The notes under the pieces are model-generated. The model had not been told where the DNA came from. It did no database searches and was given only the letters and a program-made list of their open reading frames with translations. Position numbers and translations under genes: made by a program. Positions 15,732 through 56,211 of a stretch of DNA of 64,000 nt are shown here, in pieces; within the stretch, counting starts at the first letter, position 1; every line of letters begins with the position of its first letter. Source of the DNA: Lepidurus packardi (lineage: Eukaryota > Arthropoda > Branchiopoda > Notostraca > Triopsidae). The stretch covers positions 10,912,001 through 10,976,000 of the forward strand of contig JAKZAN010000004.1 of the NCBI GenBank assembly GCA_023053545.1. The letters are read 5' to 3'.

Positions 15732-17033
15732 CTACGAGTCTGCGGATTGGAGTAGAACGATCAAGTAGGTCAGTATTGCGGAAAACATTGTCAAAAGCGT
15801 GGAATTCGTCATGGTATATAGGCCATACGGGTTCATAGATACGGAGCGACCATGCAGTCGGTTCATAAAAAGGTGGAGGATTCTATCAGCGCTATATAAG
15901 GAAGTTAGACCCGTTATGGTTAACTGCAGCTTCTCATATTGATTGGAGATGCTACTGCACAACCTGTTGAAGCAGACCATTCTCACGAGGTAGAAGATAA
16001 AGTTAATCAAGTACGAAATGTACATGGATCCGGCCACGGATTTTCTCCTGATGGTCGCGTAGCCCAGCACGCAGGTCATGAGGAAATGACCTCCTTGAAC
16101 AGCCAGAATAATCAAACTGAAAGTACGGCTGAATTGGTCTATTAGTCTTATAATGGATTCCGTTGCTAGCCATGCGTTCTGGATCTGTTCCGTTCGATCA
16201 TCAGCTACTGGAACAGCTGTTTTGGAACGTTTCCTCGCAAAATTAGCTTGAGCTGATGAAACAACTCCACTTTCTGGTAGAAATATACCGATGTTAGACA
16301 GATGGGTTGTCGCCCAGTCCGAACGAGCGGCAGGATCCATTTGCAGTAGTGGTAGTACCCGGTATGTGGAATCCAAGGTTTTGTTGATGTGGGCGAAGGA
16401 CAACGACAGGTAGTAGCACAAGATACCGATCCCGAGTTCCCCCAAAATGATAAACACCCATCCATATGTGATATGGAGGGTATGCAAGAAAATCGCTACG
16501 GCGCCAAGAAATCCTGAACTGAAGTGCGGCTCGTAAGTGAGTAACCCAGCTGTAGGGTTCGAAACGACGTAGCTGACGACCGATACAATAGAGGCGATCC
16601 CCATGATGGCGTACAAGACAAACATAAGTCCTAAATATTTAGCAGATCTCTCAGAGCAACTGAGCCGGTGGCTGAAGTACAAACGATCCCAGATGGTGAA
16701 CAGGGTTCTAATGGAGCGGCTTTTGAAGGCAAAGAAGAGATGGGTAATGACAGCAGGGTAAATAGACATACACCAGATTGTTCCGTCTATGAAGATAACC
16801 ACCATTCCTAATTCTTGACCGGGATCGTTGGCGTGGGCAAATAAACCCCAATATACATGACCTACGACGCCTAAAACTACGGTCATGGTAATCAATCCTC
16901 GGATGAGGTGAAACCAATGGGAAGCTCGGTTGGGAGGGACTACAAGTGGAGTTTGGACTGCCCAACAATCCGGCAAACCTACCAAACTAGTTATACACAC
17001 CACAGGTTTTAAGAAGGTTAGAAACGGTAACAT
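15732..17033 (-). CDS. Gustatory-receptor-like seven-transmembrane protein (receptor A)
   Basis: This single-exon gene of 433 residues has several hydrophobic segments (for example LITMTVVLGVVGHVYWGLF, YLINFIFYLVRMVCFN). Its C-terminus (NPYGLYTMTNSTLLTMFSAI followed by LTYLIVLLQS) carries the GR-family signature TYhhhhhQF with the last residue changed to Ser. Arthropod gustatory receptors are ligand-gated cation channels with an intracellular N-terminus. It is the only receptor on the minus strand and is separated from the plus-strand array by Rab35. It is divergent from the other six, with only the C-terminal motif obviously shared. The ligand cannot be inferred. Confidence 0.88.
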   Translation of the reverse strand: MLPFLTFLKPVVCITSLVGLPDCWAVQTPLVVPPNRASHWFHLIRGLITMTVVLGVVGHVYWGLFAHANDPGQELGMVVIFIDGTIWCMSIYPAVITHLFFAFKSRSIRTLFTIWDRLYFSHRLSCSERSAKYLGLMFVLYAIMGIASIVSVVSYVVSNPTAGLLTYEPHFSSGFLGAVAIFLHTLHITYGWVFIILGELGIGILCYYLSLSFAHINKTLDSTYRVLPLLQMDPAARSDWATTHLSNIGIFLPESGVVSSAQANFARKRSKTAVPVADDRTEQIQNAWLATESIIRLIDQFSRTFSLIILAVQGGHFLMTCVLGYATIRRKSVAGSMYISYLINFIFYLVRMVCFNRLCSSISNQYEKLQLTITGLTSLYSADRILHLFMNRLHGRSVSMNPYGLYTMTNSTLLTMFSAILTYLIVLLQSADS

Positions 17034-19520
17034 TTTCCGAATCTTTAGAGAGACAAGTGACTACAACCTTGCTCCAGAACAACCTAACAAACAATTGAAG
17101 GCAAGTTTAGGTCACACTGGATAGAGTACCATCCCTACCATGTATCAGGTCAAGGTACTTTGGGTGTAGGTATTGTACGCATGCGATTCGATTTGGTTCA
17201 GCTTGAAAGGTGCTTTTTCGTGGCTTCCTGAAGGATATAAGGGTAAGAAAGAACATAAGAAAAATGCTTAGTCACGTACAATAAGCGTTCTAGCTGTGAC
17301 AAAAAAATGACAAAGGAGACAAGGATGACCCTGGACCAAACCTATCATTTTGATGGTGATTGGGTACACCTACGCACGCAACAAGTTATTCCTGGGGAGA
17401 GTAAGTACGCCAATGGACAGATATTACCCCATAATGTCTCTTGTGCAAAAATGAATGTGCAAAAAACACATTACTTTGTAAACAATAACCGTTAGTAATA
17501 CCTTCGAGTGATCAGATGTGTTACGAGAAGACCTTTTGTTTCGTTTTATGTAGTGAAGGGAAAGCGGCACATGTCATAAAACGAGCCAAAGTGAGTTGAC
17601 ATATGTACTAATCTAAGAATTGTTCTTTGCACTTCACTTACCCTCGGTCACTCCTTCAACAAAATTTGAAGGGTATTACGTGAGTGCACTCACATCATAG
17701 TGTACTGTCATGTACTCATGAGTTTGTGACAATTCTAGCGATCCTAGCAACATAATGCTTTCAATGCTATAATGTATGTGTGAAGTATTTGTATTACAAT
17801 AAATGAAATATGAATCCGTACACAAATCAGTTTTAGCTACATTGGGTTAACCTAATTAGGCGTTTCTGCAGAAATAGTACCCGAATTATGCCAACCTACG
17901 TATCACGTGTGTTTTTGTTTACCTTTAGCATATCACGAGTTGTGTAAGTCAGATAATTGCTGTAAGTATATTGTGTATTGTAAGATAATTGTGTAAGTCA
18001 GATAATTGGTACTACTGCATACCAAAAAGTACAGTGCTGTAATGCCTCTATACAGGCATTAGTTTATAGTACATCTAAAGCTACTTGTCTTGGGAAATGA
18101 ACAGCCTGAACTTGGGCACAAATTCAGTTTATTCTTTTGCGGTCGAGTGAACTTTTGCAGGGCTTTTTATATGCTATCGTCAATCACCAAAAGGAGAAGG
18201 GTACTTCTGTTGAAGGAATGCATTCCAAATATTACGGAATCCTAACTCCCATTGTTCTGCTTCTTACTGACTCCAGCAGTTAGTAGAATAACGCCGTACG
18301 TTATCATTCTCAACAACGCTTTTATTTATTTCAAATGGAAAATTACATTTGTTTAGAGTTTGAATTTGAAGTTTTTTTTAAATCTTTCACCGTAAATTCC
18401 GCACTTACTTCGAATGATATGAACTCTTACGCTGCCTTTTCTCCACAGAAGAAGAAAGTTTCAGTAAATTCTTTCGAAGCAATACAATAGTTCAATAGTA
18501 CGAAAAGTACTTATAAACCGAATTTTGAAACGGCTGCAAACCCTGGTAAACAACATGGCAGAAAGTGTCGCAATGGTCGCTAGTTACTAAAAAACCCCGC
18601 TAATTATGAAATGGGATTGGGGCAGTAAGCAAAAACTGCCCTTTGAAGCCACTCAGGCCTGATTATACGCCCAGACGAAACTATGTACGCAGTTAGTGAT
18701 AAGTTTTAATTTTCAAACTTCTTCTACCAAGATTACAATTTTCCAACATCTCAATTATAAACTCATAAATCAAAGTCCCAACTTCTACGATAACTTTATT
18801 TCGCATTTGAATTGGGATGAATAAGATATGCTGAACGATCTGACTATCTTTCTAGCGTTTCTAAAACGTGTTACAGGTGGGGATAATCCACAACGCAAAA
18901 CCGGAAGCTGTGGTCCCCGTAATGATGCACACTGAACATTCGACATGCACAAGCTAAAGAAAAATAGAGAAAAAAAAATCAGGAAAACTTGTTTTAAAGC
19001 TTAACATTCCAAAAACAACGCGCATCAAGATCGGAACACCCTTATTAACAAAATCATGATGTGTGGAAACTAAACTGCTTCTTTAAAAAAAATAATAAAA
19101 AAATATGATAAATCAGCCTGCTTGAAGATTTCCCCACTTTGAGCCCACCAAAGCCTACCAAATCTTGTTTGTGTGACTGGCTACGCGAAACGTTCTTCAA
19201 TTGCACTACCGAAACAACATGGTCCGGGAGATCAATCACACGGCTCATCAGTAAGTGAATTCACGACAACTTTCTCCCAAATGGCGATTTGAATCTTGCC
19301 ACGTACAAACTCGAATGAATGAACCAGTTCTACCAGCTTCTTTCGTCTTTTTTTAAATCCACTATGTACACCAGGATGTCATGATTTGAGCTCAGGTGGA
19401 CATGTGCGTGTCTTCCAGCCCCTTTCTTTTGAACCAGACTTGAGTTAACAGTTCAACGCTTGCCGAAAATCACACAAACTTATTCAAGCGATACGAATGG
19501 CTTACTTTCCTTTCGGCAAG
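17034..19520. other. 2.5-kb intergenic region, nothing recognised
   Basis: No gene is supported. It holds the upstream region of receptor A and the 3' flank of Rab35. Near 17941-18010 the motif GTAAGTCAGATAATTG occurs twice as a local direct repeat. Confidence 0.4.
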
Positions 19521-21315: not shown

Positions 21316-21415
21316 AGAACGTATGAGAAACTCTTCAAATCGTTAAATGCAGTTGACGAAAATTCGAGTGAAAGCCGGCAGTGGGAATTCACAACTCAGA
21401 CCAGAAGGTTTCAAA

Positions 21416-22666
21416 ATGAAGCTAGACATTCTTTCGAGCTTTGAATTGAAATCAACAGTTCATCCATTGTTTCGCGTATTGAGGCCAATACAGATTCTCA
21501 CCAAGGTGCTCCTCTTCATACCAGAATGGATTAACAAACCGGAAGCATTCCAACCGAAATCTGTTACAGAAATCATCTTATTGAGCTTTAGCTGGGTATT
21601 GGCAGCAGGCGATGCAAGTTTGCTGGGCTACGGAATGTATTCCTTCGTACAATCAGTTGGGAACAAAGTAGAAATTTTGAGAATACTCAATCCGTTATTG
21701 TGGGTACTCTGGAATTCCACGTCCCTTATCACTCACGTGTTTATACTATGTAACTTAACACGATTGCCAGCCTTTTTTTGCTCACTGAAAGATTTCACCC
21801 CTCGACACGTACTCTTGCAACGATATAAAGTTAAGTGTAATTTTAAAGTTATAACAGGACTTTACTTTGTTTTTATTGTTATGCAACTGGTATCCAACTT
21901 GGGGCTGATATTCTTCATGATGGATAATTTAGATGTTCCTCCTCTTGTGTCATCTATTTCCTTTTTTAGAAATGGTCACCTGCTTTATGTCGTTATTGGC
22001 TTACAATTTTACATTGGAATCTATTCAAGTGTTGGCATACTTACCGTAGATCTAGGAGTAGGCTTCGTTTTTTATTACTTGGGAATTCGATTTCGCTTTT
22101 TGTCCCTGTACTTGCAAGATTGCTGTTCAAATGTCCGACAAGACTCGAAAAATCACCCTGTAACGCAAGCCATTCCATCGATTTGGCAAACTTACGAAGA
22201 TATCTTAAAGCTTTTGGAAAATGGAAGCTCTTTATTTGGGCCGTTAGTGTTGATCAATCAACTGAACCACTTGATCAGCACCACGGTCTTCACGTATGCG
22301 GGAATGCGCAGCACTTCCACCTTGACTATGACAAGTGCCGTGGTTTATGTAGCGAATTGGATCCTGTTCAACTTTCGTTCTATAGTGTTCAACATCCTAG
22401 TCAGTCAAGTAAATATTGAACACGACAAAATGCAACAGACCTTAGCTCGGTTAGCTGCAACGTATAGCGAACTGGATCTACAAGACAGTCCGAAACAAGC
22501 CAAGGAATACTCTGTGGTGAAAAACCTGTTGAATCGCGTGCAGAACCATGTAGTAGCCGTGAGTCCATTAGGCTTGTATAAAGTCACTTCTGGTACTCTA
22601 TGCATTATGGGAGGCACCCTAACCGCCTATTTAGTGGTACTCTTACAATCAAGCTTCTCTGCCTGA
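21416..22666 (+). CDS. Gustatory-receptor-like protein (receptor B)
   Basis: This single-exon gene has about 416 residues. The start at 21416 (MKLDILSS) was chosen because it aligns with the ATGAAG starts of receptors C and E. An in-frame ATG at 21347 would add 23 residues. Paralogue blocks include HPLFRVLRPIQILTKV near the N-terminus, DLGVGFVFYYLGIRFRFLSLY in the middle, and a C-terminal pore/TM7 region (VQNHVVAVSPLGLYKVT, then LTAYLVVLLQS). The last motif is a variant of TYhhhhhQF with Ala for Thr and Ser for Phe. It heads the tandem plus-strand array and is closest to receptor C. Ligand unknown. Confidence 0.87.
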   Translation: MKLDILSSFELKSTVHPLFRVLRPIQILTKVLLFIPEWINKPEAFQPKSVTEIILLSFSWVLAAGDASLLGYGMYSFVQSVGNKVEILRILNPLLWVLWNSTSLITHVFILCNLTRLPAFFCSLKDFTPRHVLLQRYKVKCNFKVITGLYFVFIVMQLVSNLGLIFFMMDNLDVPPLVSSISFFRNGHLLYVVIGLQFYIGIYSSVGILTVDLGVGFVFYYLGIRFRFLSLYLQDCCSNVRQDSKNHPVTQAIPSIWQTYEDILKLLENGSSLFGPLVLINQLNHLISTTVFTYAGMRSTSTLTMTSAVVYVANWILFNFRSIVFNILVSQVNIEHDKMQQTLARLAATYSELDLQDSPKQAKEYSVVKNLLNRVQNHVVAVSPLGLYKVTSGTLCIMGGTLTAYLVVLLQSSFSA

Positions 22667-23154
22667 TAGCTGTATTGCAGTTGTGAAATAATCTATAGGT
22701 CCATTAACCACACCTTTCATTACTACCAATGTTATTAAAACTAAAAGGCTTGTGTACAGAAACACCTTTAATACGCAAGTTGGATCGATTTTTTATCAAG
22801 AAAATTATTGTTATATTACCCATCAAGTCTTGGGTAGCTACCTACGATCTTAATATCGCTTACGCACACTCCGTCCAACCCACCTCACACTCTTTTCCGC
22901 CCCCATATTCCGACCCTGACATTAAGACCGATATGGAGAAATTCAGTAAAGTCGAAGTAATAGAGCGAACTCAATGGATATAAGTTTTTTGTGAGCTTAA
23001 GTTAAAAAGCCTTTAATTATATTCTAAGAAGTCCGTAATTAAATTGTAATTGCCTTTCTGTGTTGTAGACACGAAGTAGACATACAAACCCATCTCAATC
23101 GGTCTTTAGTGCAGTTCGGAAAAATTTATCCGGTCAAAAACATAATTTACGACA

Positions 23155-24396
23155 ATGAAGAGCAATTATGTCAAGCCACTGCCAGTAAAACCCACAATTC
23201 ATCATCTATTTCGTGTATTAAGACCAATACAGGTCATTTCGAGGGTGATTTACTGCGTACCAGAATGGATTGACAACTCAAACTCATTCCAACACGGATC
23301 TGTTACACACATTTTCTTATTAAGCTTCAGCTGGCTTTTGGCGATTGGTCAAGCAAGTATATTGGCCTACGGTGTATATTCCTTCATAGATTTAATTGGA
23401 AAGAATGCTAATCTATTAGAAACATTGAATCCGTTGCTATGGGTACTCTGGAACTCCACGTCCTTGTTTATTCACATATTTGTATTGTGCAACTTTAAGC
23501 GTTTACTAGCATTGTTTAGCTCCATAAAGAAATTCACCGCTCGGCGCGCCCTCTTGCAGAGATATGAAGTTATCTGTAATGTTAAAATTGTGATGTCACT
23601 TTATGTGGCGCATAGCCTTATTCAACTTATGTCTGGAATAGGCTTGGTTTTCTTCATGATCGATACTCCACATATTCCTCCACTCCTAACATCATTTCCC
23701 ATGTTCACAACTGGTATTTTGTGGTACGTCGCAATAGGGATACAAACATACAGCGGAATTTATGCAACGGTTGGGTTAACTACTGCCGACCTTGGTATAG
23801 GCTTCGTTTTCTATTACTTGGGCCTTCGATTCCGTGTTTTGAGCCTGTACTCTCAAGACTGTTCCTCGTTAATCCAGAAAGATTCCTTCCATCCTATAAC
23901 GCGAGGCATTCCAACGATCTGGAAAACTTACGAAGATATTATCAAGCTGCTGGAGGATGCCAGTTCTTTGCTTGGATGTTTGGTAATCTTCAATCAACTG
24001 AATCATTTGATTGGGACTGCAGTCTTTACGTATGCTGGGATATGCAATGCTCTTACAATGACTATGGCAAGTGTCACGAATTATATCTCAAATTTGATCG
24101 TCTTCTACTTCCGTTCTGTAGTGTTCAACACCTTAGTCAGTCAAGTGAACGTTGAACATAACAAAGTGCAGCATGCGTTAGCGCATTTGGCTGCAACGTA
24201 CCACGAAATAGATATCCATGACAATCCTCAACAAGCTAAGGAATATGTAATGGTCAAGGACTTGCTGAATCGCGTGCAGAACCATGTGGTAGCCGTTAGT
24301 CCATTCGGATTGTATAGTGTCACTACTGCTACTCTTTGCACCATGGGAAGTACGGTTTCCGCCTATTTGGTAGTGCTCCTACAAACCAAAACTTAA
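23155..24396 (+). CDS. Gustatory-receptor-like protein (receptor C)
   Basis: This single-exon gene of 413 residues begins MKSNYVKPLPVKP. It shares HHLFRVLRPIQVISRV, a transmembrane block with LNPLLWVLWNSTSLFIH, TADLGIGFVFYYLGLRFRVL and a C-terminus VQNHVVAVSPFGLYSVTT then SAYLVVLLQ with receptor B. It lies 488 bp downstream of receptor B on the same strand, a typical spacing for tandem duplicates with separate promoters. The conserved leader block is present upstream (GTTGTAGACACGAAG at 23062). Confidence 0.88.
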   Translation: MKSNYVKPLPVKPTIHHLFRVLRPIQVISRVIYCVPEWIDNSNSFQHGSVTHIFLLSFSWLLAIGQASILAYGVYSFIDLIGKNANLLETLNPLLWVLWNSTSLFIHIFVLCNFKRLLALFSSIKKFTARRALLQRYEVICNVKIVMSLYVAHSLIQLMSGIGLVFFMIDTPHIPPLLTSFPMFTTGILWYVAIGIQTYSGIYATVGLTTADLGIGFVFYYLGLRFRVLSLYSQDCSSLIQKDSFHPITRGIPTIWKTYEDIIKLLEDASSLLGCLVIFNQLNHLIGTAVFTYAGICNALTMTMASVTNYISNLIVFYFRSVVFNTLVSQVNVEHNKVQHALAHLAATYHEIDIHDNPQQAKEYVMVKDLLNRVQNHVVAVSPFGLYSVTTATLCTMGSTVSAYLVVLLQTKT

Positions 24397-24884
24397 TGCC
24401 AGATCTGTTTAAAATCTGTATTGAATTCCACTTAATGTTTCGATAAGGCTAAACACTCCTTTTTAATGTTATCAGTCTTGAACCAAACTATAGAAAGTTC
24501 CACTATGACATTAGTGTAGAAACGTATTGCTTCGAACCCCACAGCAAAATTGACTTCAGCAATTCTTTCTTGTATGGAACTACCCATTAGCATGTAATCC
24601 AAACTTAAACTGTGTGTAATGTTTTAGTACCTTGCACGCATGATGTTCAACCCATTTCATAATAGTAGCCTACCAAGACAAAAAATACAGACAAATAAAA
24701 GCTAGCATGCCATAGTAACGTTCAACTAATGGAGCACTTTTGTTGACAAGAATGCCATGGTATTCAATTTGTAACTGCCCTTTTCTTTGTTGTGGATAAA
24801 AAAGAAGAAACGAATATAGAATACAACTACATTTTTAAAGCAGTACGACTTAGTCTCTTGGACAAGGAAGAAGACTTCAATAAA

Positions 24885-26135
24885 GTGAAGAGCGATCTCA
24901 TAAAAAAATTTGCAACAGAAACCCGTGTTCATCATTTGTTTGACGTGTTAAGACCCATACAGATTCTTACAAAGGTAATCTACTTCCTACCGGAATGGGT
25001 AGACAAACCAGACCCTTTCAAATCAAAATCACTTATGGAATTCGCCGCTTTGTTTTTCAGCTCGTTCTTGTTCATATGTGCTGCTTCTTTACTGAACTAC
25101 GGTAATTACGCATTCGTGGATATAGTTGCTGGAAAAGCTAATATGGTTTTGGCAATGAATCCCTTGTTATGTGTCATTTGGTATTTTATGCCTATTTTCA
25201 TCCACGCTTTTATATTTTGCAACTTTAAACGTTTACCCATGTTTTTCAACGCTCTGAAGAATTGCATCACTCAAAATACAGCGCTCCAGCAATACCAAGC
25301 TCAATGCAACAATAAAGCGGTAAAAATATTGTATTTAGCTCATACCCTTGTTCAGTGTATATCTGCCATAGGCATAGTTTTGTTCCTGTTAGAAAATCCG
25401 ACAAGTCGCCCACTCTTTACTTCTATTACTATTTTCCAAACTGGTCCCTTGTGGTACATTGCGATGATATCGCATGTGTTTCTCGGAATCTATGCTACAG
25501 TAGGTCTAGTTACAGCAGATCTAGGTGTGGGTTTCATATTTTACTACCTGGCCCTCAGGTTCAGCGTCCTTAAGCAATATTCGCACGACTGTCGCTCCAA
25601 AATCCAGAAGTACTCTTGCCATTATGTAATACGAGGTATCCCAACGCTTTGGCAAAGCTACGAAGACATCCTGGACATGCTGAGCAGTGCAAATTCGCTT
25701 TTCGGGCCTTTGGTGTTGGCCAACCAATTCAACCACTTGATAGCTACTGCAGTCTTCACCTACGCATTAATACGTACCATCTTCGACATGCCTGCTTCAA
25801 GCGTCGTGGTTTATGTATCAAACTGGATCCTCTGCTATTTCCGTACAATAGTCTACAATACCCTATTGAGTCAAATAGACTTCGAACACAGAAAATTTCA
25901 ACGATCTTTAGCTCGTTTGGCTGCAACGTACAGCGAGTTGGACCTTACCAATAATCCAGAAGGAACCAAAGAATACGCTACACTGATACACTTGTTGCAT
26001 CGTGTCCAGAACCAAGATGTAGCAGTCAGTCCATTTGGGTTATATACTGTGACTTCCGCTACTCTTTGTGCCTTGGGAAGCACCATTGCCGCCTATTTAG
26101 TTGTTCTCTTGCAATCCAACAATTCAGCTGTATAA
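24885..26135 (+). CDS. Gustatory-receptor-like protein (receptor D), start codon apparently lost
   Basis: The frame is open for about 416 codons with every family block (HHLFDVLRPIQILTKV, PEWVDKPDPF, ADLGVGFIFYYLALRFSVL, VQNQDVAVSPFGLYTVTS, AAYLVVLLQS). At the position where paralogues B, C and E have ATGAAG, this gene reads GTGAAG (24885-24890). The same frame stays open upstream back to a TGA at 24744 but contains no ATG, and the first in-frame ATG downstream (25036) is inside the transmembrane region. Either an unseen 5' exon supplies the start, a non-ATG start is used, or this is a very young pseudogene. The 3' half is nearly identical to receptor E. Confidence 0.75.
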   Translation: MKSDLIKKFATETRVHHLFDVLRPIQILTKVIYFLPEWVDKPDPFKSKSLMEFAALFFSSFLFICAASLLNYGNYAFVDIVAGKANMVLAMNPLLCVIWYFMPIFIHAFIFCNFKRLPMFFNALKNCITQNTALQQYQAQCNNKAVKILYLAHTLVQCISAIGIVLFLLENPTSRPLFTSITIFQTGPLWYIAMISHVFLGIYATVGLVTADLGVGFIFYYLALRFSVLKQYSHDCRSKIQKYSCHYVIRGIPTLWQSYEDILDMLSSANSLFGPLVLANQFNHLIATAVFTYALIRTIFDMPASSVVVYVSNWILCYFRTIVYNTLLSQIDFEHRKFQRSLARLAATYSELDLTNNPEGTKEYATLIHLLHRVQNQDVAVSPFGLYTVTSATLCALGSTIAAYLVVLLQSNNSAV

Positions 26136-26570
26136 ATTTATGAAAAATTACACTCTGCTGCAGAACTTAGTCTCCTTTAATTTTCATAAAAAGACCGTTT
26201 CCAATACATAGAAATGGATACGATTTCATTGGATCCAGGTGGTACCAGGAAAGCAAAAGCTTGAAAAATTGTCCCATTGAACGTTGACTGTGATGTGCCG
26301 CAATACTCTAAAACTACTGTATTCGTTGAACCTACGTTGATCAGAACCACCAGCGGCGGGTTTTATGAACTCGCTGAAATCAGCTGGTTGATCAGATACC
26401 ACATTGACCACCACAAGATAAAGATTGGAAGCATTGTTAAATATGGTCCTAAACTTTTACTTTTGTTTGTTCACAAATGTATTACATATGTCCTTGTAAA
26501 ATACTGGTGTTATTCAATTCGCATCAGTATAAACTGCTTTGATTTATATGAGCTTGTACACTGATATGAC

Positions 26571-26742
26571 TAGCCAAGGAGTACTCAGTTGTGAAAAAAA
26601 ACTTGCCGAATCGCGTGCAGAACAATGTATTAGCTGTCAGTCCATTCGGGTTATATACTGTCATGTAAGCTACTCTTTGTACTATGGAGGCACCGTTACA
26701 ACCTATTTGGTTGTGCTTTTCCAATCCAATACCTCTGGATAG
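26571..26742 (+). pseudogene. Receptor relic: decayed C-terminal fragment of a receptor B-like gene
   Basis: The fragment aligns with the last ~57 codons of receptor B, from AKEYSVVK to the stop (for example NRVQNNVLAVSPFGLYTV). It has an indel in a run of A near 26594 and a premature TAA near 26666. The rest of the gene is not recognisable upstream. About 280 bp of 3' flank after it still resembles the flank of receptor B. Confidence 0.8.
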
Positions 26743-27252
26743 TACATTTCTTTACACGACAATTAACACACCTCCCTCATTATGATCAATCACATTATAA
26801 CATGTGGAAGGCACGTAAGGGAATACTTTTGTAAACACACCCACTTGGATCGACTTTTTGTCGAGTGAAATTAACAGAGCATTTAGCCCCATATGTCTTG
26901 TTTGCTCCATGGCTCACCATTATCTGTACTTCGTTCCAATGCCGAATTTATTAACGCGATCTTAACAGCACTTATTGAAACTGCGTCCAACACATGTCAC
27001 ATTATTCTGTCTACAGGTAAAAGCCCAGATAGACCGATAAGACAAGGTTGCCAACAGTGTAAGTGATTGGCAGACAATAGTTTGCAGGCCATTCTGTTTA
27101 AGCGATCATTTTATTGAATACTCATGGTATAGCGTATAAAAATGTTGCGGCAACATTTTGTTGTGGATACGAAGGTAGTAAAGACTACCACAGAGAGGCA
27201 TTCTTCAGAGCAGTACGACTTAGGCTTTCCTACCAAAAAGAAGAGTTCCACA

Positions 27253-28509
27253 ATGAAGCACTATTCTGTCAAGCCATTTGAAAGAAAACGTACTGTTCAT
27301 CATCTGTTTTCTTTGTTAAGACCCGTGCAGATTCTCACAAAGCTAGTTTACGTTATCCCAGAGTGGATCGACAAACCAGATCCTTTCCAACGGAAGTCGT
27401 GTATGACATGTGCATTGCTGGTTGTAAGTTCATTGTTGCTAATGTTTACAGCATCCTTAATGACCTATGGTAATTACGCATTCGTGGTTTTATTTATTGG
27501 CAAAGCTAGTATACTTGAGGTAATGAATCCCATGTTATGGATCCTTTGGAATTTTATGCCAGTTTTCACTCACGCTTTTTTATTAAGCAATTTAAAGCGC
27601 TTACCATCATTTTTCCAGTCTGTGAAGAATTTCCCCACCAGAAATGTAGTACTCCAGCGATACCAAGCCCAGTGCAACAAGAAAGTGGTAGTGATGCTGT
27701 ATGTGGCTCATATCCTTATCCAATGTGCATCTGCAGTAGGGGTAATTTTGTACCTAATTGAAAACCCGAATACTAGCCCACCTCCTCTCCTTACCTCCAT
27801 GACTATTTTCAGAACTGGTCCTTTGTGGTATGTCGCGATGGCGTCTCATTTATATCTGGGAATTTATGCAACAGTTGGTTTAGCTACAGCTGATCTAGGT
27901 GTGGGTTTCATATTTTACTACCTGGCCCTCAGATTCAGCCTCCTTAATCAATATTCGCACGACTGTCGCTCCAAAATCCAGAAGTACTCTTGCCATTATG
28001 TAACACGAGGTATTCCAATGCTTTGGCAAAGCTACGAAGACATCCTGGACATGTTGAGCAGTACAAATTCGCTTTTCGGGCCTTTGGTGTTGGCCAACCA
28101 ATTCAACCACTTGATAGCTACTGCAGTCTTCACCTACGCATTAATACGTACCATCTTCATCATGCCTGCTTCAAGCGTCGTGGTTTATATATCAAACTGG
28201 ATCCTCTGCTATTTCCGTACGATAGTCTACAATACCCTACTGAGTCAAATAGACTTCGAACACGGCAAATTTCAACGATCTTTAGCTCGGTTGGCTGCAA
28301 CGTACAGCGAGTTGGACCTTACCAATAATCCAGAAGGAACCAAAGAATACGCTACAGTGATACACTTGTTGCATCGTGTCCAGAACCAAGATGTAGCAGT
28401 CAGTCCATTTGGGTTATATACTGTGACTTCCGCTACTCTTTGTGCCTTGGGAAGCACCATTGCCGCCTATTTAGTTGTTCTCTTGCAATCCAATAATTCT
28501 GGTATATAA
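27253..28509 (+). CDS. Gustatory-receptor-like protein (receptor E)
   Basis: This single-exon gene has about 418 residues from the ATGAAG start at 27253 (MKHYSVKPFERK), aligned with receptors B and C. An in-frame ATG at 27142 would add 37 residues, including the translated leader block, and is less likely. Blocks: HHLFSLLRPVQILTKL, PEWIDKPDPFQRK, ADLGVGFIFYYLALRFSLL, VQNQDVAVSPFGLYTVTS, AAYLVVLLQS. From about 27893 to 28495 it is about 97% identical by eye to receptor D, while the 5' halves differ much more. A short palindrome (AAAATGTTGC / GGCAACATTTT) covers the upstream ATG. Confidence 0.88.
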   Translation: MKHYSVKPFERKRTVHHLFSLLRPVQILTKLVYVIPEWIDKPDPFQRKSCMTCALLVVSSLLLMFTASLMTYGNYAFVVLFIGKASILEVMNPMLWILWNFMPVFTHAFLLSNLKRLPSFFQSVKNFPTRNVVLQRYQAQCNKKVVVMLYVAHILIQCASAVGVILYLIENPNTSPPPLLTSMTIFRTGPLWYVAMASHLYLGIYATVGLATADLGVGFIFYYLALRFSLLNQYSHDCRSKIQKYSCHYVTRGIPMLWQSYEDILDMLSSTNSLFGPLVLANQFNHLIATAVFTYALIRTIFIMPASSVVVYISNWILCYFRTIVYNTLLSQIDFEHGKFQRSLARLAATYSELDLTNNPEGTKEYATVIHLLHRVQNQDVAVSPFGLYTVTSATLCALGSTIAAYLVVLLQSNNSGI

Positions 28510-28857
28510 TTGTTTCTTTATTTCCTTATTTTTGGCAGAAAGGACATCTTTTAATTCTCCAAGGTAACCTTTTCATGTATTAAATACCTTATACTGTATA
28601 CCTTTACTGTTTCAAATACATTTCTGCTCTAAATGTGGACCCATTTCTATACTGGCAATAATTTGGATGTAGTTTGGAACTGCCAGGTCCACTCATTAAT
28701 TTATCAGCTTTTGATCTAACTGTCCTCACTATTTACGCATGCTCCCTTCCCGTGTCTTCTTCTTTTCTTTTATATTTTCCTACAAAGCGTTCAAAAGACA
28801 AGTGCAATTAGAGATCCACAACACTTGCTACAGGAAGTTCTTCGAACACTAGTTACT

Positions 28858-30162
28858 ATGGCCACTCAAGAGTACGTTATTCCTTTGAGACGTTATATTG
28901 GGCCCCTCAATAAACTGGCTAACGGAACGTTCGCATTAATTCCATGGGATTATGAAGCCCAGTTTTCCTGTTTACGTTACGCGGTAGTTATTCTCAGCGG
29001 AATCATTCTGTGCTCCTCAACAGCTTACGGATACTACCTCCTATCCGTTCGGTTGCTTACTGCTAAACCCATTGAAGAACTAGTAGAGACGCTCAACCGG
29101 TACATTGTCTATCCTTTAGCAGTTACGTTTTTCGTCACCTTTATGAGGAAGCGGAAATCTTTGAACCGATTCCTTCAACAGTGGAAAGAATTGGAAGAGC
29201 CCCTCGATAGCTACATGAAGAACCAACAAATCAGTCTCGGCTATTACAGAATGGTCAATGTTGCCTGCTTGATTAACCTCTTCATCCTCTCAGGCTCCCT
29301 CGCGTTCTTCACGTGGAAGACGGATACGTATTCTTTGTCATCCATCAAAGCTGTACGAACTTCGCCGGCCTTCTATTTTGTTTACGTGGTTGACATCATG
29401 GCCTTTTGCAACGCAACACTGCTAAACTACATGGCGGACGTTGTGGCAAGCTTCGCCTACCGCAATTTAGCTTGTGTTTTATTGAAGATACAGAACGCCT
29501 TTGAGAAAGATGTCGACGATCTACTACAGAAACTACAGATTGACGAGTTGCAGGCAGCAGACCCTTTTATTTTTCACGAGAATACAGTTGCTTGGATGGA
29601 AAAGTCAATGTCAAGAGGAACTCGCAGTCGTGGTACAAAGAGGGTGCTGGTGTCTTTCGAGGACACCATTGATGCCATGTGGAAGCGTTACGAGAGCTTG
29701 AATCAACTCGTAGATGAAGCAGGAGATTACTTTGGGGCAGTACTTTCTGTGAGCTACGCTGGCTACTTTATCATCATTTGCAGTGTGACGTACTTTCTCC
29801 TCGCATTGCTGCGCAAAGGGAGCAGTGACGCTAATCCTTTCAATGGCATAAGTTTCCTGGCTTACATGTTGGGAAATATCCTCTTCCTGATCAAGATTGT
29901 GTTTGTAAACAGCATGTGCAGTCGGTTACCCGCTCAAGTGACTGCCTTTCAGGTTAGTATTAACAAGACGATGAAAAGATGCTGGAAAGAGCTTGGGAAC
30001 GATGAAAAGAACACTTTGCAAGCCTTTTTGCAACACGTCCGCAGTAATAAATGGTCAGTTTCGCCTCTCAACTTGTTTACGATAAACACTAGCACTCTCC
30101 TTTCCATGACAAGTCTTATTGTTACTTACATTATTGTCTTGCTCCAAAGCAATTGCGGATAA
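28858..30162 (+). CDS. Gustatory-receptor-like protein (receptor F)
   Basis: This single-exon gene has about 434 residues from 28858 (MATQEYVIPLRRYIGPL). An in-frame ATG at 28825 would add 11 residues. The chosen start aligns with receptor G (MAAKDYVIPLQR). Shared blocks with G are YIVYPLAVTFFVTFMRKRKS, WKRYESLNQLVDEAGDYFG and the C-terminus NTSTLLSMTSLIVTYIIVLLQS, close to the canonical TYhhhhhQF. F and G form a second subfamily, clearly apart from receptors B-E. Confidence 0.88.
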   Translation: MATQEYVIPLRRYIGPLNKLANGTFALIPWDYEAQFSCLRYAVVILSGIILCSSTAYGYYLLSVRLLTAKPIEELVETLNRYIVYPLAVTFFVTFMRKRKSLNRFLQQWKELEEPLDSYMKNQQISLGYYRMVNVACLINLFILSGSLAFFTWKTDTYSLSSIKAVRTSPAFYFVYVVDIMAFCNATLLNYMADVVASFAYRNLACVLLKIQNAFEKDVDDLLQKLQIDELQAADPFIFHENTVAWMEKSMSRGTRSRGTKRVLVSFEDTIDAMWKRYESLNQLVDEAGDYFGAVLSVSYAGYFIIICSVTYFLLALLRKGSSDANPFNGISFLAYMLGNILFLIKIVFVNSMCSRLPAQVTAFQVSINKTMKRCWKELGNDEKNTLQAFLQHVRSNKWSVSPLNLFTINTSTLLSMTSLIVTYIIVLLQSNCG

Positions 30163-30601
30163 AATTTCAAAACGATACATTTTTATGAAACTCCCCTTTA
30201 GTATATCAACTTAACAACTTCTTGACCAACCTTCTTCACTTTTATCTTCCTATTAACGTATAACCATTAAGCTTATACTTCGGCCACTAGGAAATTACTT
30301 TAATTAGCACGCTCATGTTTGGACTTGTAACTGTATCCAATGTGGAGCGATAAAAACTGTCTTTTCTATTGACTATTACAGAACTTCTACCAGAAAATAA
30401 TTCCGTGTTCCTACCCAGCCATTTGCCAAATTACTTGCACTAAATCATGTATACTGTATTGATCAGAACTATACGGACATGCTCATGCTCATTTTAAAAA
30501 GTTAAAACGCTTTTAAGAAAATTAAACACGCTACATTCTGTGGGCAGGGGTCTTTTCCTGATTAGTCGCTGTCAAACAGTGCAACAAGAGAAAGCCAAAT
30601 T

Positions 30602-31915
30602 ATGGCCGCTAAAGACTATGTAATTCCTCTACAAAGAAATCTAGCTCCTGTTACCAAACTACTAATTCTAACTGGTGGATTGCTATCATGGGATTACTCC
30701 TTGCAGGGTAACATAGTAATCCGGTATCTGCGCTATGTAATGACTGCCTTTTTCGGACTGGGTTTGTGTGTAACGTTTGCGTTAAATAGCTACCTACTCT
30801 TGCAAGTCATGACAGCTCCTGACATTCACGTTCAGAAAGTCGTTGAGACGCTGCTTAGGTACCTTGTGTATCCTCTAGGTATCGTTAATTTCGCACTATT
30901 CACTCGGAAACGTAAGTCAATCTACACATTCATGCAAGACTGGAGACAATTGGAGGAGCCATTGGATGCTAAAAAGAACGTTGCAGTAAAGCCCTTGCAA
31001 AATTATCGTCTGGCTGCCAATTTTATCTGCGTTCTCGTCATCGTACTTACTGCTATGTCTGCGTACACTAGTACAGCCCATCTAGACACCATACTCTCGC
31101 TAGTCTCATTAGACGTGATTCTAAAATCCAAAATGTATTACATATTTCTTGTCCTAAGCGTTCTTATTTCCTTTCACTCCCTGCAACTAAACGCTCTTGG
31201 GGACATTTTTCCCGCGTACGTGTACCGAAATTTCGCCATTTTATTAGTCAAGATCGAAACAGCCTTCCTGGCAGATATGGAAACCTTTGGGAAACAGAAA
31301 AATCCAGACCAGCTTCCCTCTTATACAATCAGTTCTTTTCTTCCAAGCGAGATATCACCATCAATCCTTAGGAAAAGACAATTCTGCGCCGATCCGCCAT
31401 TGTTATCCAGAAAAGACGTCATCAACCAGCTATGGAAGCGTTACGAGCATCTTGACAAGCTTGTGAAAAAAGCAGGTGACCTGTTTGGATTTTCTCTCTT
31501 TTGCAGCTACGCCGTTGCGTTTTACACAATCTGTTGCGCATTTTATTGGCTTGTATCAACTGTTCGTGCTCAAAGCAAAACTGGTTCCCTTTCAGACGAT
31601 ACTTTCATTCCAGTGATGAACATTTTTATGTGCCTGTGTTTTATAGTCAAACTAACGATCTTAAACAACTTGTGCAGCAGCTTGCCCAACCAAGTAACCC
31701 TATTTAACACCAGTATAAGCAGTACAACCTACAAGTATTGGGAAGACCTTCAAATTGAAGAAAGACAGCTATTGCGATTCCTTTTGCGTCATTTGAAAAT
31801 CAACAACTGGGCAGCGACACCCCTGAACTTATTTTCAATCACTACCAGCACTTTGCTGTCCATGGCTAGCCTTATTGTCACTTACGTCATTGTTTTACTG
31901 CAGTATCAGCCCTAA
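30602..31915 (+). CDS. Gustatory-receptor-like protein (receptor G)
   Basis: This single-exon gene of 437 residues starts MAAKDYVIPLQRNLAP. It shares YLVYPLGIVNFALFTRKRKS, LWKRYEHLDKLVKKAGDLFG and the TM7 block TTSTLLSMASLIVTYVIVLLQ with receptor F, 440 bp upstream. It is the last receptor of the array. The final residue of the GR motif is Tyr rather than Phe. Confidence 0.88.
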   Translation: MAAKDYVIPLQRNLAPVTKLLILTGGLLSWDYSLQGNIVIRYLRYVMTAFFGLGLCVTFALNSYLLLQVMTAPDIHVQKVVETLLRYLVYPLGIVNFALFTRKRKSIYTFMQDWRQLEEPLDAKKNVAVKPLQNYRLAANFICVLVIVLTAMSAYTSTAHLDTILSLVSLDVILKSKMYYIFLVLSVLISFHSLQLNALGDIFPAYVYRNFAILLVKIETAFLADMETFGKQKNPDQLPSYTISSFLPSEISPSILRKRQFCADPPLLSRKDVINQLWKRYEHLDKLVKKAGDLFGFSLFCSYAVAFYTICCAFYWLVSTVRAQSKTGSLSDDTFIPVMNIFMCLCFIVKLTILNNLCSSLPNQVTLFNTSISSTTYKYWEDLQIEERQLLRFLLRHLKINNWAATPLNLFSITTSTLLSMASLIVTYVIVLLQYQP

Positions 31916-50701: not shown

Positions 50702-52240
50702 ATGGCAGGTATATTAGCCAGAGTAAGTGCAAATTATGCAATAAGTAATATAAGATTAAGTAATAAAACTATTTCTCTAGAGCCTAGCGTGCCAAAATCT
50801 GGCGTATTCCAGTGTACGTACTCTTGCAGCTCGTCCGCAAAGACCCTTTCATGCGTCTCCTGCCAAAAATGGTAAACCAATCACTGTCTTTTCCGAAGAG
50901 GAACTAATGATGAAAGAAACTGTCTCTAAAATGGCAAGGGAAAAAATCAGCCCTTTGGTTCGAAAAATGGATGCCGAGTCTGAAATAGACCAGTCAGTAG
51001 TCGACGCACTTTTCGAGAATGGGGTAAAACCTTAGAAATAAAAATCGCGTGTAACTTTCTTATGCTTCATTAACTTTGTTATATTTTACTTACGCCTTTG
51101 TTTCTTTCCAGTTGATGGGCATTGAGATTGGTCCCGAATATGGTGGCACAGGCTCCACCTTCTTCACTGCGAACATCGTAATTGAAGAACTCGCCAAAGT
51201 AGATCCGGCAATAAGCGTTTTCTGCGACGTCCAGAACACGCTTATTAACACGCTTTTCCGCAAGCTTGGCACCTCGGAACAGAAGCAGAAATACCTTCCT
51301 CGCTTAGCAACAAACATGGTAGAAATCCTAAAAGTTGCACTCTGAAGATAAATTAATTAAATCAAGATTTACTTTTTAAGGTTGGAAGTTTCTGTTTATC
51401 GGAAGCCGAAGCAGGCTCGGACGCATTTAGCCTCAAAACACTGGCTGTTTTGAACGGAAATGAGTACGTTTTGAATGGTTCCAAGATGTGGATCACCAGC
51501 GCTGATCGCGCCGGGGTGTACCTCGTGATAGCCAACGCGAATCCGTCCCAAGGGTACAAAGGAATAACTTGCTTCATCGTAGACGCAGGGACTCCTGGTC
51601 TTTCAATAGGAAAGAAGGAAGATAAGCTCGGGATACGCGCTTCTTCCACCTGTGCGGTTCATTTTGACAATGTACGTGTCCCCAAAGACAATATCCTGGG
51701 TGAATTGGGCCAAGGCTACAAATACGCCATTTCTATGCTCAACGAAGGACGAATTGGCATTGGAGCCCAAATGTTGGGTCTGGCAGAAGGCTGTCTTGAA
51801 GCAACTATTCCTTATTTATTAGCTCGCAAGCAATTTGGCAAACGCGTTTGGGATTTCCAGGTAAATAATCTAAACCGTTCAATTTTTATACGCTGAGTGT
51901 TAATTACTTGGTGTGTATGAATTAGGCTGTGCAACATTTAAGCGCGCAGTTAAGCACTCAAATAGAATGCGCTCGTTTGCTGGTTTATAACGCAGCTCGA
52001 CTCAAGGAAGCTGGCTTACCCTTTATCAAACAAGCTGCCATGGCTAAGTACTACGCGTCCGAAGTTGCTGCGCTGACGTCATCGAAATGTGTGGAAGTAA
52101 TGGGCGGAGTCGGGTTTACGAAGGATTTTCCGGTGGAGAAGTTTTACCGGGATTGCAAGATCGGAGCAATTTACGAAGGAACGTCAAACATCCAGTTAAA
52201 TACTATTGCCAAACTAGTGGAACAGGAATATCAGTCTTAA
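50702..52240 (+). CDS. ACADSB: Short/branched-chain acyl-CoA dehydrogenase, mitochondrial
   Basis: The enzyme oxidises 2-methylbutyryl-CoA and related acyl-CoAs in isoleucine breakdown, passing electrons to ETF. Five exons join in phase: 50702-50722, 50781-51023, 51112-51318, 51381-51860, 51926-52240, about 421 residues. Exons 1-2 encode a basic, Ser/Ala-rich leader (MAGILARSLACQNL) fitting a mitochondrial targeting peptide. Acyl-CoA dehydrogenase blocks follow: [73 protein letters not shown] and [21 protein letters not shown]. The Glu of AIYEGTSN is the expected catalytic base. Closest recalled homologue is ACADSB rather than ACADS. Confidence 0.95.
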
Positions 52241-52437: not shown

Positions 52438-54131
52438 ATGACACAAAGAAAGGAGCGGGAGAAGCATGTTGAAGCGTTGTTAAATTCCATTTCAGAGACT
52501 CGGCCAGATGTTGATTTGTTGCTGCAAACTTGGCTGGCTCATCCAGGAGCAAACTGTGCTTGGCATCGCATTCTTTGCTTTAAAAGCGGCTACCGCGCTG
52601 TAAAAGAAATTTCACTCTTTGTGGATGCCACAAGTGAAGATGGGATTGTCCGTGGTACTTGGAAGGACTTGGCTAATCAACTCAACTTCGACTGGAGAAA
52701 CATAAGAGTAACTAAGAATTAACATAAGAGTAAGACATAAGTAACATAAGAGTAAGACATAAGTAACATAAGAGTAACATATAAGTAAAATAAGGAACAA
52801 AAGAGTAACACAAGTAACATAAGAGTAACACAAGTAACATAAGATTAACACAAGAGTAACATATAAATAAAATAAGTAATATAAGAGTAACACAACTAAC
52901 TTAAGAGTAACACAAGTAACACAAGAGTAACATAAGTAACATAAGAGTAACACAAGTAACATAAGAGTAACACAAGTAACATAAGAGTAACACAAGTAAC
53001 ATAAGAGTAACACAAGCAACAGAGTAACTAAGAGTAAATAATAATTACAAAAGAATGAGAATTAATTATAAGATTGCTGTTTAGATCATCGAGAATCGCT
53101 GTGGGCGAACTAGTCCTACTGTTTGGGTACTCGAGGAGTACGGCAAAAAGCCTGATGCAAATGTTGCTGCTGTTTTAACAGCTCTCCATAAAGAAGGCCG
53201 CAAAGATATTCTTCTCGCTACCCAACAGTACATCGAAAGTAAAAACTAGCTTGGTCGACTGGCTTATTAAGTCAATTTTGCTTGATTTGACAGATCTACT
53301 GGAAGAATGCGCGCGCAGGGCAACGCAAACTCCTATGGAATTGGTGGCTTTCGATGAAGAAGACATGCGAAGCGATTCAGGTTATGCCGAAAGCAGTGAC
53401 GGCGAGGTTGGCACTTTTGAAATGCGATACCAAGAGTCTGGACAGAGTATACATGGCGATTTACGTGGAGAACCTTCATTGGACGTGAAGGTTCTACAAT
53501 ATGCTTCTTCTACGTCGGCGCCAATTGCGAGTACTCGCAAAATAGTACTCCTAACTTTCGCGTCAGATGGCGCAGAAACAGCCAAACAAGTAGAGGCCAT
53601 TTTCAAACGCAACCGCGAAGGGTTACCCATGATGGGCGTGGTAATCCTGGAAGATTACCGCGAATACTTGGAAATCGACGCTTGGGCAACTGTCCAAAAG
53701 TGGTTTCACGATGTAAATCGACTCTTTTACCTTAATATTCTTACAATCATTTCAAAACTGTTTTCCATTAGGTGGACTTTATCATTCCTATACTAACGCC
53801 CAAGTACTTGAGCACTGTATTGCCTTCAGAAAACAGCGAATCAGACGATGAGCAGGACCAGCACATGTCTCTGGATGCACAGTACGCTCGGATGATCTAT
53901 TCCTTGATGACCAACGAATATACGCGGAAATTCAACTGCCTAAACCTGCGCGTGCGCTCTCTTATGCCCGATGAACACGTCGCCGCCATCAAATCCCATG
54001 GTGCCCTCACTGCATCACTCTTTTGGCCCTGGAAAAAATCCTCCGAAGCCGAATCTCTGGCTGTTTCTTTACTAAATCGCAAATATCGGCCTCCTAACTC
54101 GATCACTTCTCAGAAAAATTGCAAAAGCTGA
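52438..54131 (+). CDS. Death-domain plus SEFIR-domain adaptor (Act1/CIKS-like)
   Basis: Four exons join in phase: 52438-52707, 53085-53238, 53294-53712, 53772-54131, about 400 residues. Residues ~65-140 resemble the MyD88 death domain ([55 protein letters not shown]). From ~205 the sequence matches the SEFIR domain of Act1/CIKS ([43 protein letters not shown], the YARMIY...NEYTRK helix and a final SLFWPW). SEFIR proteins relay IL-17-type receptor signals; death domains join MyD88-Pelle/IRAK assemblies. The fusion suggests an adaptor linking the two. The gene starts 198 bp after the dehydrogenase stop on the same strand. Start chosen at the first ATG of the open frame. Confidence 0.8.
52708..53040 (+). 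repeat. AT-rich minisatellite filling intron 1, unit resembles the splice donor
   Basis: About 330 bp of imperfect ~20-bp repeats of the form ACATAAGAGTAACACAAGTA fill nearly the whole 377-bp intron. The same string, ACATAAGAGTAAC, forms the exon 1/intron 1 border, where AGA|GTAAC is the 5' splice site. The array thus contains more than ten further copies of the donor-like AGAGTAAC. Confidence 0.9.
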
Positions 54132-54194
54132 AAATAAAGAGCCCAAACTCGTCTTTTATTGTATTCTGGAAATTGCCAAAGCCAATGAAGAACT

Positions 54195-56211
54195 CTACAC
54201 TTTCGCCTTCTTCTTTTTCTTCTTCTTCGGTGTTGATTCTGCTTCTTCGGCTTCTACTACTGGCTCTACTGTGGTAAGAAATTATAGTCAGTCTCCCGGT
54301 GACAAATACACATAATATAGAAACAATTTTACCTTCTTGGGCCTGCCGTTTCTTCTTTTTCTTCTCAGACACGGGTCCGTCCTCGGCGCCATTAACTGGC
54401 TCTTCCGCAGCAGGAGTTGCAGCTCCGTTTGTGTCCTTCTTCTTCTTCTTTTTGTTTTTCTTACCAACCACTTGCTTGGCCATCTCCATCGCTTCAGCCA
54501 TAACTTCGACGTTTTTCCTCGGCAAATCGCCGGTTTCGTAGAAGCGCAAACGCTCTTCTACTTGCTCGCGTAGTTTCCCACCAAAGACGTCCGAAGGTAC
54601 CTCGGTGAAGCAGTCGATACGCGAGGCGATGGAGCATTTGTTGGCCAAATAGCGCGAAATGCGACCTTTGTTTTTAGTGCCCGCTTTGCCGATGAAAGTC
54701 GAGTGGAAGATCAAGCCATACTTGGGGGTGTTCCCCTTGGTTTTAAGAGCTCGAAACAGAGCTTTTTCGGCTCCCAGGATCTGAACAGTCGACGCTGGGT
54801 ATTTGGCTAAATTGGTTAAAGATCCCGCATGGGAAATGAGACGAGCTCCAACTTGCTCGCCAATTAAAGCAGACAAATTGGGGGCAACGCTGTGCATTTT
54901 AGAGCGCAGGTATTCTTGTAGACCAAGGCGGTATTCAGCTAAGCCTATCACTCGCGTGGCGAAACGCTCAATGTTGATCAAGTCAATAGGAGAAATATCC
55001 ATGCCTGGAACAAGAAATGACTTAGAAATTTCCATTTTTTAAGACATTAAAAGTAAGAACAGGAACGTAGAGGTTTTAGTAGAGTTTAAGTAGTAGTTGA
55101 GGTTTTACCCATTGAACTTCTGGAAGCTTCGATGACGGCTTGGGCCTTGGAGCTGTCCATGATGAGTTCCTCGAGTTCAGGAAGTTTGTCTTCGGACAAT
55201 TCTTTGCGGTTTTTGATAAAACGAACCACTTTGGCGTACATGTGGTTGTCGGGAACAATCTTAATGAGCTCTGGGAAATGGTAAGAGTACCATTCACGAA
55301 TCCGCATAGAAAATGTGTTGATGTCTTTGTCAAGTTGGTCCAAAAGAGCAATGCTCTGAATAATCATGTTGTCGACACGATTCACGTTGAACTTGACTTT
55401 GGCGCGAGAGTAGCTGTGGCCCAAACCAAGTTGTGCGATTCCAGAGGATTGTAAGGTGAATCCCTTTACCAGGTTGTGGTAATGGAAGCGAATGCCTATA
55501 ATTTACAGAATTTATTGGATCTTATTATTGGACCTTAGGAGAGGGAGCAAAAAGGAAAGTACCTCTTATGATTTCTGGAACTGCTCCGGTGTGCTGACAG
55601 GTGATTCCCAAGGCTTCTATGATGGCAGCACCCAATTTAGGTTCAATAACACCTAGGATGACGGATTCCTTGTTTTTCTTGCTGGGTTTGGGTAATTGGG
55701 TCTCCAAAAACAACTGTAATTCCTCGGTTAGTAGACCTACATGCAGACAACAAGTAATTTTTACTTTTTTCGCTTAACATTGAGAGTAAAATACCTTCGG
55801 AGACGCTGTTCATGTTTTCCAAAGCGTGTGCAGCAGATTTGAAAGGCGAAAAGGCGATGAATTTGACGACCGAGTTAAAACGCGACAAGTCGGAGACCGA
55901 TTGCTCGACTTGAGGTAGCAACATCCCAGCTTCCTCGAATTCTTTAACGCGAAACAGGGCATAGCCTGCCGCATGTTCATATAAAATGAACATTTGCGTC
56001 TAAAAATGTGAAAATTAGAACAAAAAAACTTAAGCTTTCACATAGTTCGGCACAGCCATCGCGAGTCACATGTAAACAGTACAAGTAGGACGTAAACAAT
56101 CCGAATATCACCACATATCTAAGTCATCCTAGTTTTAAAATGCCAAATAACGTATCAGATGAAAGAGGATACGAATTAGAAATACTTTTACGCTAAAATC
56201 ACGCTTACCAT
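54195..56211 (-). CDS. Nop56: NOP56, box C/D snoRNP core protein
   Basis: NOP56 with NOP58, fibrillarin and 15.5K forms the snoRNP that 2'-O-methylates rRNA. Exons: 56211-56209 (start codon only), 55999-55795, 55736-55563, 55495-55109, 55004-54333, 54268-54195, all in phase, about 504 residues. Blocks: [38 protein letters not shown] (coiled coil), [14 protein letters not shown], the Nop domain [59 protein letters not shown] and [20 protein letters not shown], and a Lys-rich tail ending KKKAKV. The first exon ends exactly at ATG|GTAAGC, and the next begins TQMFILYEH. An alternative start at the second Met would give a protein three residues shorter. Vertebrate NOP56 introns host snoRNAs, but none was convincing here. 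Confidence 0.95.

Follow-up and report, generated by a model that had tools for sequence, protein, structure and literature searches.

Whether arthropods keep an Act1-type adaptor, in which a death domain precedes a SEFIR domain, for signaling from interleukin-17 (IL-17) receptors is the question raised by one gene in the genome of the notostracan Lepidurus packardi. The gene lies in a 64,000-nucleotide stretch of contig JAKZAN010000004.1 (positions 10,912,001 to 10,976,000; hereafter the window), where four exons on the plus strand run from an ATG at window position 52438 to a stop codon ending at 54131. We put the probability at about 0.8 that its product is an Act1-type cytosolic adaptor, with a death domain and a SEFIR domain, acting in a route from IL-17-type receptors to the kinase Pelle.

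Splicing yields a 400-residue product without an internal stop; the coordinates given in the original prediction proved exact, and the motifs that it quoted all lie in the product. All three introns (377, 55, and 59 bases) are bounded by GT and AG, and the three junctions keep the frame. When the genome (108.6 Mb in 344 contigs) was searched with the protein at E values up to 1, the four matches were the gene's own four exons, with no second copy. Three protein searches recovered 17 distinct relatives (P0001 to P0017). Five insect proteins match the adaptor over 81 to 91% of its length (best E value, 1.5e-20), and conservation spans the third splice junction (relative's stretch, FKQVDYIIPILTREY), which together place the gene far beyond chance.

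The ten relatives with named organisms come from Cloeon dipterum, Neocloeon triangulifer, Ampulex compressa, Microplitis mediator, Apolygus lucorum, Lygus hesperus, Periplaneta americana, Cryptotermes secundus, Zootermopsis nevadensis, and Blattella germanica, and include no fly, beetle, or moth. None of the 17 relatives has an annotation more specific than "Death domain-containing," the others being called uncharacterized or hypothetical. Precomputed Pfam assignments list Death in 10 of the 17 relatives, and all five relatives scanned afresh exceeded the Death cut-off. Both halves of the adaptor align with 14 relatives, although the death domain is partly missing from P0013 and mostly missing from P0015; P0008, P0016, and P0017 were left out of the alignment and of the tree. 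In that tree, which holds 15 sequences of this family only, the adaptor sits on a long branch (2.6) whose position is uncertain, at a fork with two mayflies supported at 68/79. The best identity to any relative is 29%. Insect proteins such as LOC135948357 (C. dipterum), B7P43_G10253 (C. secundus), and GE061_007127 (A. lucorum) contain both halves in matching order and are 22 to 29% identical to the adaptor; their linkers between the halves differ in length from that of L. packardi.

The N-terminal half is the more readily identified. Pfam Death matches residues 73 to 139 at 34.2 bits (cut-off, 22.6). A search of PDB sequences with the adaptor alone, at E values up to 10, gave five matches, two of them MyD88 death domain entries (1.2e-5 and 2.1e-5) and three of them chance matches to ribosomal proteins, and with a family profile MyD88 ranked first of 42 (E value, 1.9e-9). 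By PDB sequence, family profile, and the fold of relatives, the death domain is closest to that of MyD88, as had been proposed from the sequence.

That the C-terminal half is a SEFIR domain is supported by fold models of two relatives. Foldseek placed an ACT1 assembly as the top match of both models; in the better one, IL-17RA and IL-17RB follow ACT1 and TIR domains rank lower. The highest 19-residue mean hydropathy of the adaptor is 1.03, compared with 2.57 and 2.07 in the membrane spans of two receptors described below, and on this simple scale the protein is predicted to be cytosolic, with no membrane span. An IL-17 receptor layout, with extracellular domains and a membrane span before the SEFIR domain, was not seen; a death domain occupies that place, and no span appears by hydropathy. 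Scanning the 18 family proteins found no conserved TRAF-binding pattern. The TRAF2/3-like pattern was absent from all 18, while a TRAF6-like pattern occurs once in the L. packardi adaptor, inside the SEFIR half, and is scattered without a shared place in 4 of the 17 others. The linker carries SDSGYAES (53371-53394), and a [DE]S[GD][YF] motif, which may resemble a beta-TrCP phosphodegron, is found in 11 of the 18 proteins (9 with SG).

Comparison with known adaptors shows what is familiar in this protein and what is not. According to the available text of PMC7190641, citing Ryzhakov 2011, Act1 lost its death domain in the amniote lineage, and most other lineages have Act1 orthologues with the domain. 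The statement in the original prediction that vertebrate Act1 lacks a death domain thus stands for amniotes and is too broad beyond them, and because the layout is already known from this source, it is not new. Relative to human Act1 (TRAF3IP2/CIKS), the L. packardi adaptor keeps the N-terminal death domain, and no conserved TRAF-binding pattern was found in its family; relative to MyD88, its C-terminal half is SEFIR-like and not TIR. The nearest precedent that has been tested comes from C. elegans. The same text has ACTL-1 of C. elegans in complex with the IRAK PIK-1 and with MALT-1, and gives non-amniote Act1 a death-domain-plus-SEFIR layout; the likeness of the L. packardi adaptor to ACTL-1 is drawn from this description. 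IL-17 is described as absent from insects in the accessible parts of PMC5457136 and of PMC8353272, yet the latter reports one weak fly sequence. No paper naming an insect adaptor with a death domain and a SEFIR domain was found in the open-licence literature searched, which is not proof that none exists. As far as that search goes, what is new is that insects and L. packardi keep this layout unrecognised: a family with both IL-17-adaptor domains, found in mayflies, cockroaches, termites, wasps, and bugs, is filed as uncharacterised, its SEFIR half missed by Pfam.

The genome also holds candidate partners, and computation supports two earlier proposals, that the pathway resembles that of ACTL-1 and that this animal has an IL-17-type route: the genome encodes a Pelle/IRAK-like kinase as well as SEFIR-like receptors and ligands of the IL-17 type, as in the C. 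elegans pathway. The genome search for ligands and SEFIR receptors suggested with the original prediction gave two IL-17-type ligand genes and two candidate receptor genes with SEFIR-like tails. The Pfam IL17 model matched twice, at 49.3 bits (cut-off, 24) and 23 bits (E value, 0.011); as translated open frames the two genes score 47.5 and 21.4 bits, and each starts with a hydrophobic stretch. The ILCR1 ectodomain model matched three times (25.7, 24.3, and 24.1 bits; E values, 8e-4 to 2.6e-3), twice on C6 and once on C3 of the assembly. When two of these genes, the one on C3 (receptor at C3:10223432) and the second on C6 (receptor at C6:8827945), were followed downstream by eye, each continued into a membrane span and then a tail that matches Pfam SEFIR at 20.3 and 18.8 bits (E values, 7e-4 and 2e-3). 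The two C6 matches (L023 5862-9999 and L024 1-300) lie about 3 kb apart, the second leading to the SEFIR-like tail, and are probably tandem receptor genes. With the vertebrate receptor model PF16556, nothing better than chance turned up in the genome (E values, 2.25 and 4.74). Reading by eye together with Pfam also identified a separate MyD88-like gene at C2:9790387 (L013; Death, 23.5 bits; RDLLAG loop) and a Pelle/IRAK-like kinase gene at C1:638702 (L014; Death, 23.3 bits). MALT1_Ig was not found in the genome, in a search that was uninformative, as controls gave none either.

The single gene with its two domains, the nearest folds of its relatives, its insect relatives, and the partner genes in the same genome were obtained by computation; we infer the binding partners, the sequence of events, and what the pathway does biologically. 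An IL-17-type ligand would bind a membrane-spanning receptor whose cytoplasmic part carries a SEFIR domain, and the adaptor SEFIR would stack onto the receptor SEFIRs in the manner of the ACT1-receptor helical assembly 9ot1. The adaptor death domain could then nucleate a stack resembling the Myddosome, to which the Pelle/IRAK kinase would be recruited through its own death domain, and this Pelle-containing stack may feed outputs common with Toll signaling. The gene, together with the IL-17-type signals and likely receptors of this genome, suggests that a pathway often called missing from insects is still wired in some arthropods. A wider proposal, which we advance tentatively and consider somewhat doubtful, is that an ancient route from IL-17 receptors persists in arthropods, among them many insects reported to be without IL-17. 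Its Act1-type adaptor, the original death domain retained, would assemble on Pelle a second Myddosome that does not depend on MyD88, and in L. packardi the route would carry an IL-17-domain hormone signal like that of crustacean female sex hormone (CFSH), either alongside an immune signal or in its place. If the adaptor family works as we propose, it is a candidate adaptor for arthropod IL-17-type and CFSH-type receptors and shows how Pelle could serve both Toll and IL-17 routes, and the ancestral role of the Act1 death domain becomes testable in easily reared cockroaches and mayflies.

Several results weigh against an Act1-type adaptor in an IL-17-type route. Pfam SEFIR was detected neither in the adaptor nor in any of the SEFIR halves scanned from seven family members, so that the Act1-like SEFIR domain originally proposed finds its backing in the fold of relatives and not in the Pfam profile search. 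The fold models are of two relatives, at best 29% identical to the L. packardi protein, and their best Foldseek E values are only 0.004. Against PDB sequences, the SEFIR-half profile reached ACT1 only at an E value of about 1, below unrelated proteins (ORC4 and OKP1 in one search, a kainate receptor in another), and since these outrank ACT1 the match is not evidence alone. Similar searches with exon 4 alone found no match, and with the relative P0007 alone one netrin-receptor death domain (E value, 0.15). The adaptor profile matched the tails of the two receptors weakly (E value, 0.039; probability, 1.3%), hardly better than those tails matched Toll TIRs (0.075); the match is longer than that of the adaptor to Toll TIRs (0.24, over 23 columns), all of these profile comparisons being weak. 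The closing FWPW had been likened to the SWPK region of Act1, a weak resemblance in a stretch that is not conserved in relatives. Among the partners, the second ligand match, all three ectodomain matches (cut-off, 27 bits), both receptor tails (cut-off, 23), the TIR pieces of L013 (14.9 and 13.7 bits), and the kinase fragment of L014 (19.4 bits) fall below their cut-offs. Pfam SEFIR run twice against the whole genome gave no match, which does not amount to absence because 14 control genomes gave none and the two SEFIR-like tails were found exon by exon. Other searches of this kind were blind in the same way: the Death search (11 matches, 7 over the cut-off) missed the adaptor's own split death domain, and the TIR search missed the MyD88-like gene, although it returned 8 matches, of which 7 counted as over the cut-off, one only together with its neighbours. 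Finally, the available text of PMC5457136 describes IL-17 receptors in echinoderms with no detectable Act1; therefore, such an adaptor is not a requirement for an IL-17 route.

Alternatively, the Act1-type adaptor may serve mainly a hormone or neuromodulator signal, carried by IL-17-domain hormones such as CFSH, and not immunity. We regard this as possible but not the likelier outcome; it differs from the favored explanation in output only, and the two overlap. In decapods, sexual differentiation is under the control of CFSH, a neurohormone that has an IL-17 domain and binds a SEFIR receptor (parts of PMC10604874 and PMC10418988), the ACTL-1 pathway acts in C. elegans neurons (part of PMC7190641), and the hydrophobic start of both L. 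packardi ligand genes points the same way. However, the available text of PMC10604874 mentions Act1 merely to distinguish the CFSH receptor from it, that of PMC10418988 places JAK/STAT downstream of IL-17 receptors, and neither names a death-domain-plus-SEFIR adaptor for CFSH. Since the CFSH adaptor is not named there, the present family is a candidate, and the route may lead to a hormonal instead of an immune output. A divergent MyD88 paralogue, with a death domain and a degenerate TIR serving Toll receptors, is improbable: a TIR domain with a BB-loop, as expected of MyD88, was not found in the C-terminal half, which is SEFIR-like, and the genome has its separate MyD88-like gene; this reading was considered and rejected. 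Least probable by far, and rejected because the database relatives are single proteins aligning across both halves, is the joining of an adjacent death domain gene and SEFIR-like gene by a faulty splice model, which the confinement of the SEFIR half to exons 3 and 4 and the reliance of the joining on genomic sequence would allow, but which the in-frame junctions, the conservation across the third of them, and four relatives (P0008, P0010, P0012, and P0014; 393 to 400 residues) on contigs of 1.4 to 1.9 kb, a size that fits transcripts and leaves little space for introns, all oppose.

Table 1. Features of the adaptor gene (window positions) and ligand genes elsewhere in the genome
Feature	Position	Strand	Description
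Exon 1	52438..52707	+	Start codon, N-terminal region, first part of death domain; residues 1-90; GT donor at 52708
Intron 1	52708..53084	+	377 bases; mostly 20-base tandem repeat array (52699-53021) taking in the splice donor
Exon 2	53085..53238	+	Remaining death domain; residues 91-141 and first base of codon 142; matched in genome protein search
Exon 3	53294..53712	+	End of death domain region, linker with SDSGYAES, first part of SEFIR-like domain (up to FHD), from the fold of two relatives
Exon 4	53772..54131	+	Remaining SEFIR-like domain (up to FWPW), from the fold of two relatives; C-terminal tail; stop codon
AATAAA hexamer, candidate poly(A) signal	54133..54138	+	Shortly after stop codon
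IL-17-type ligand genes	L005, C3:9918859-9922077; L006, C2:11293681-11296875		Pfam IL17, the first clearly above cut-off and the other slightly below in a pair of matches

The tandem repeat (16.2 copies, 81% matches) begins in exon 1 and fills most of intron 1. Within 52699-53084, AGAGTAAC is present 13 times, and its first occurrence is the splice donor in use; reading through this donor leads to a stop after four codons. A false gene driven by the repeat was considered and rejected, as the repeat lies within intron 1 except for its first 9 bases. The upstream neighbour (51357-51893, plus strand) is an acyl-CoA dehydrogenase gene, and the downstream neighbour (54106-55038), on the opposite (minus) strand, encodes a Nop-domain small nucleolar RNA-binding protein. 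Elsewhere in the window, seven long open frames, one at 15735-17060 on the minus strand and six within 21347-31912 on the plus strand, resemble chemosensory (gustatory) receptors, which, like the insect relatives of the adaptor, indicate an arthropod, and all four of those scanned matched 7tm_7 (PF08395).
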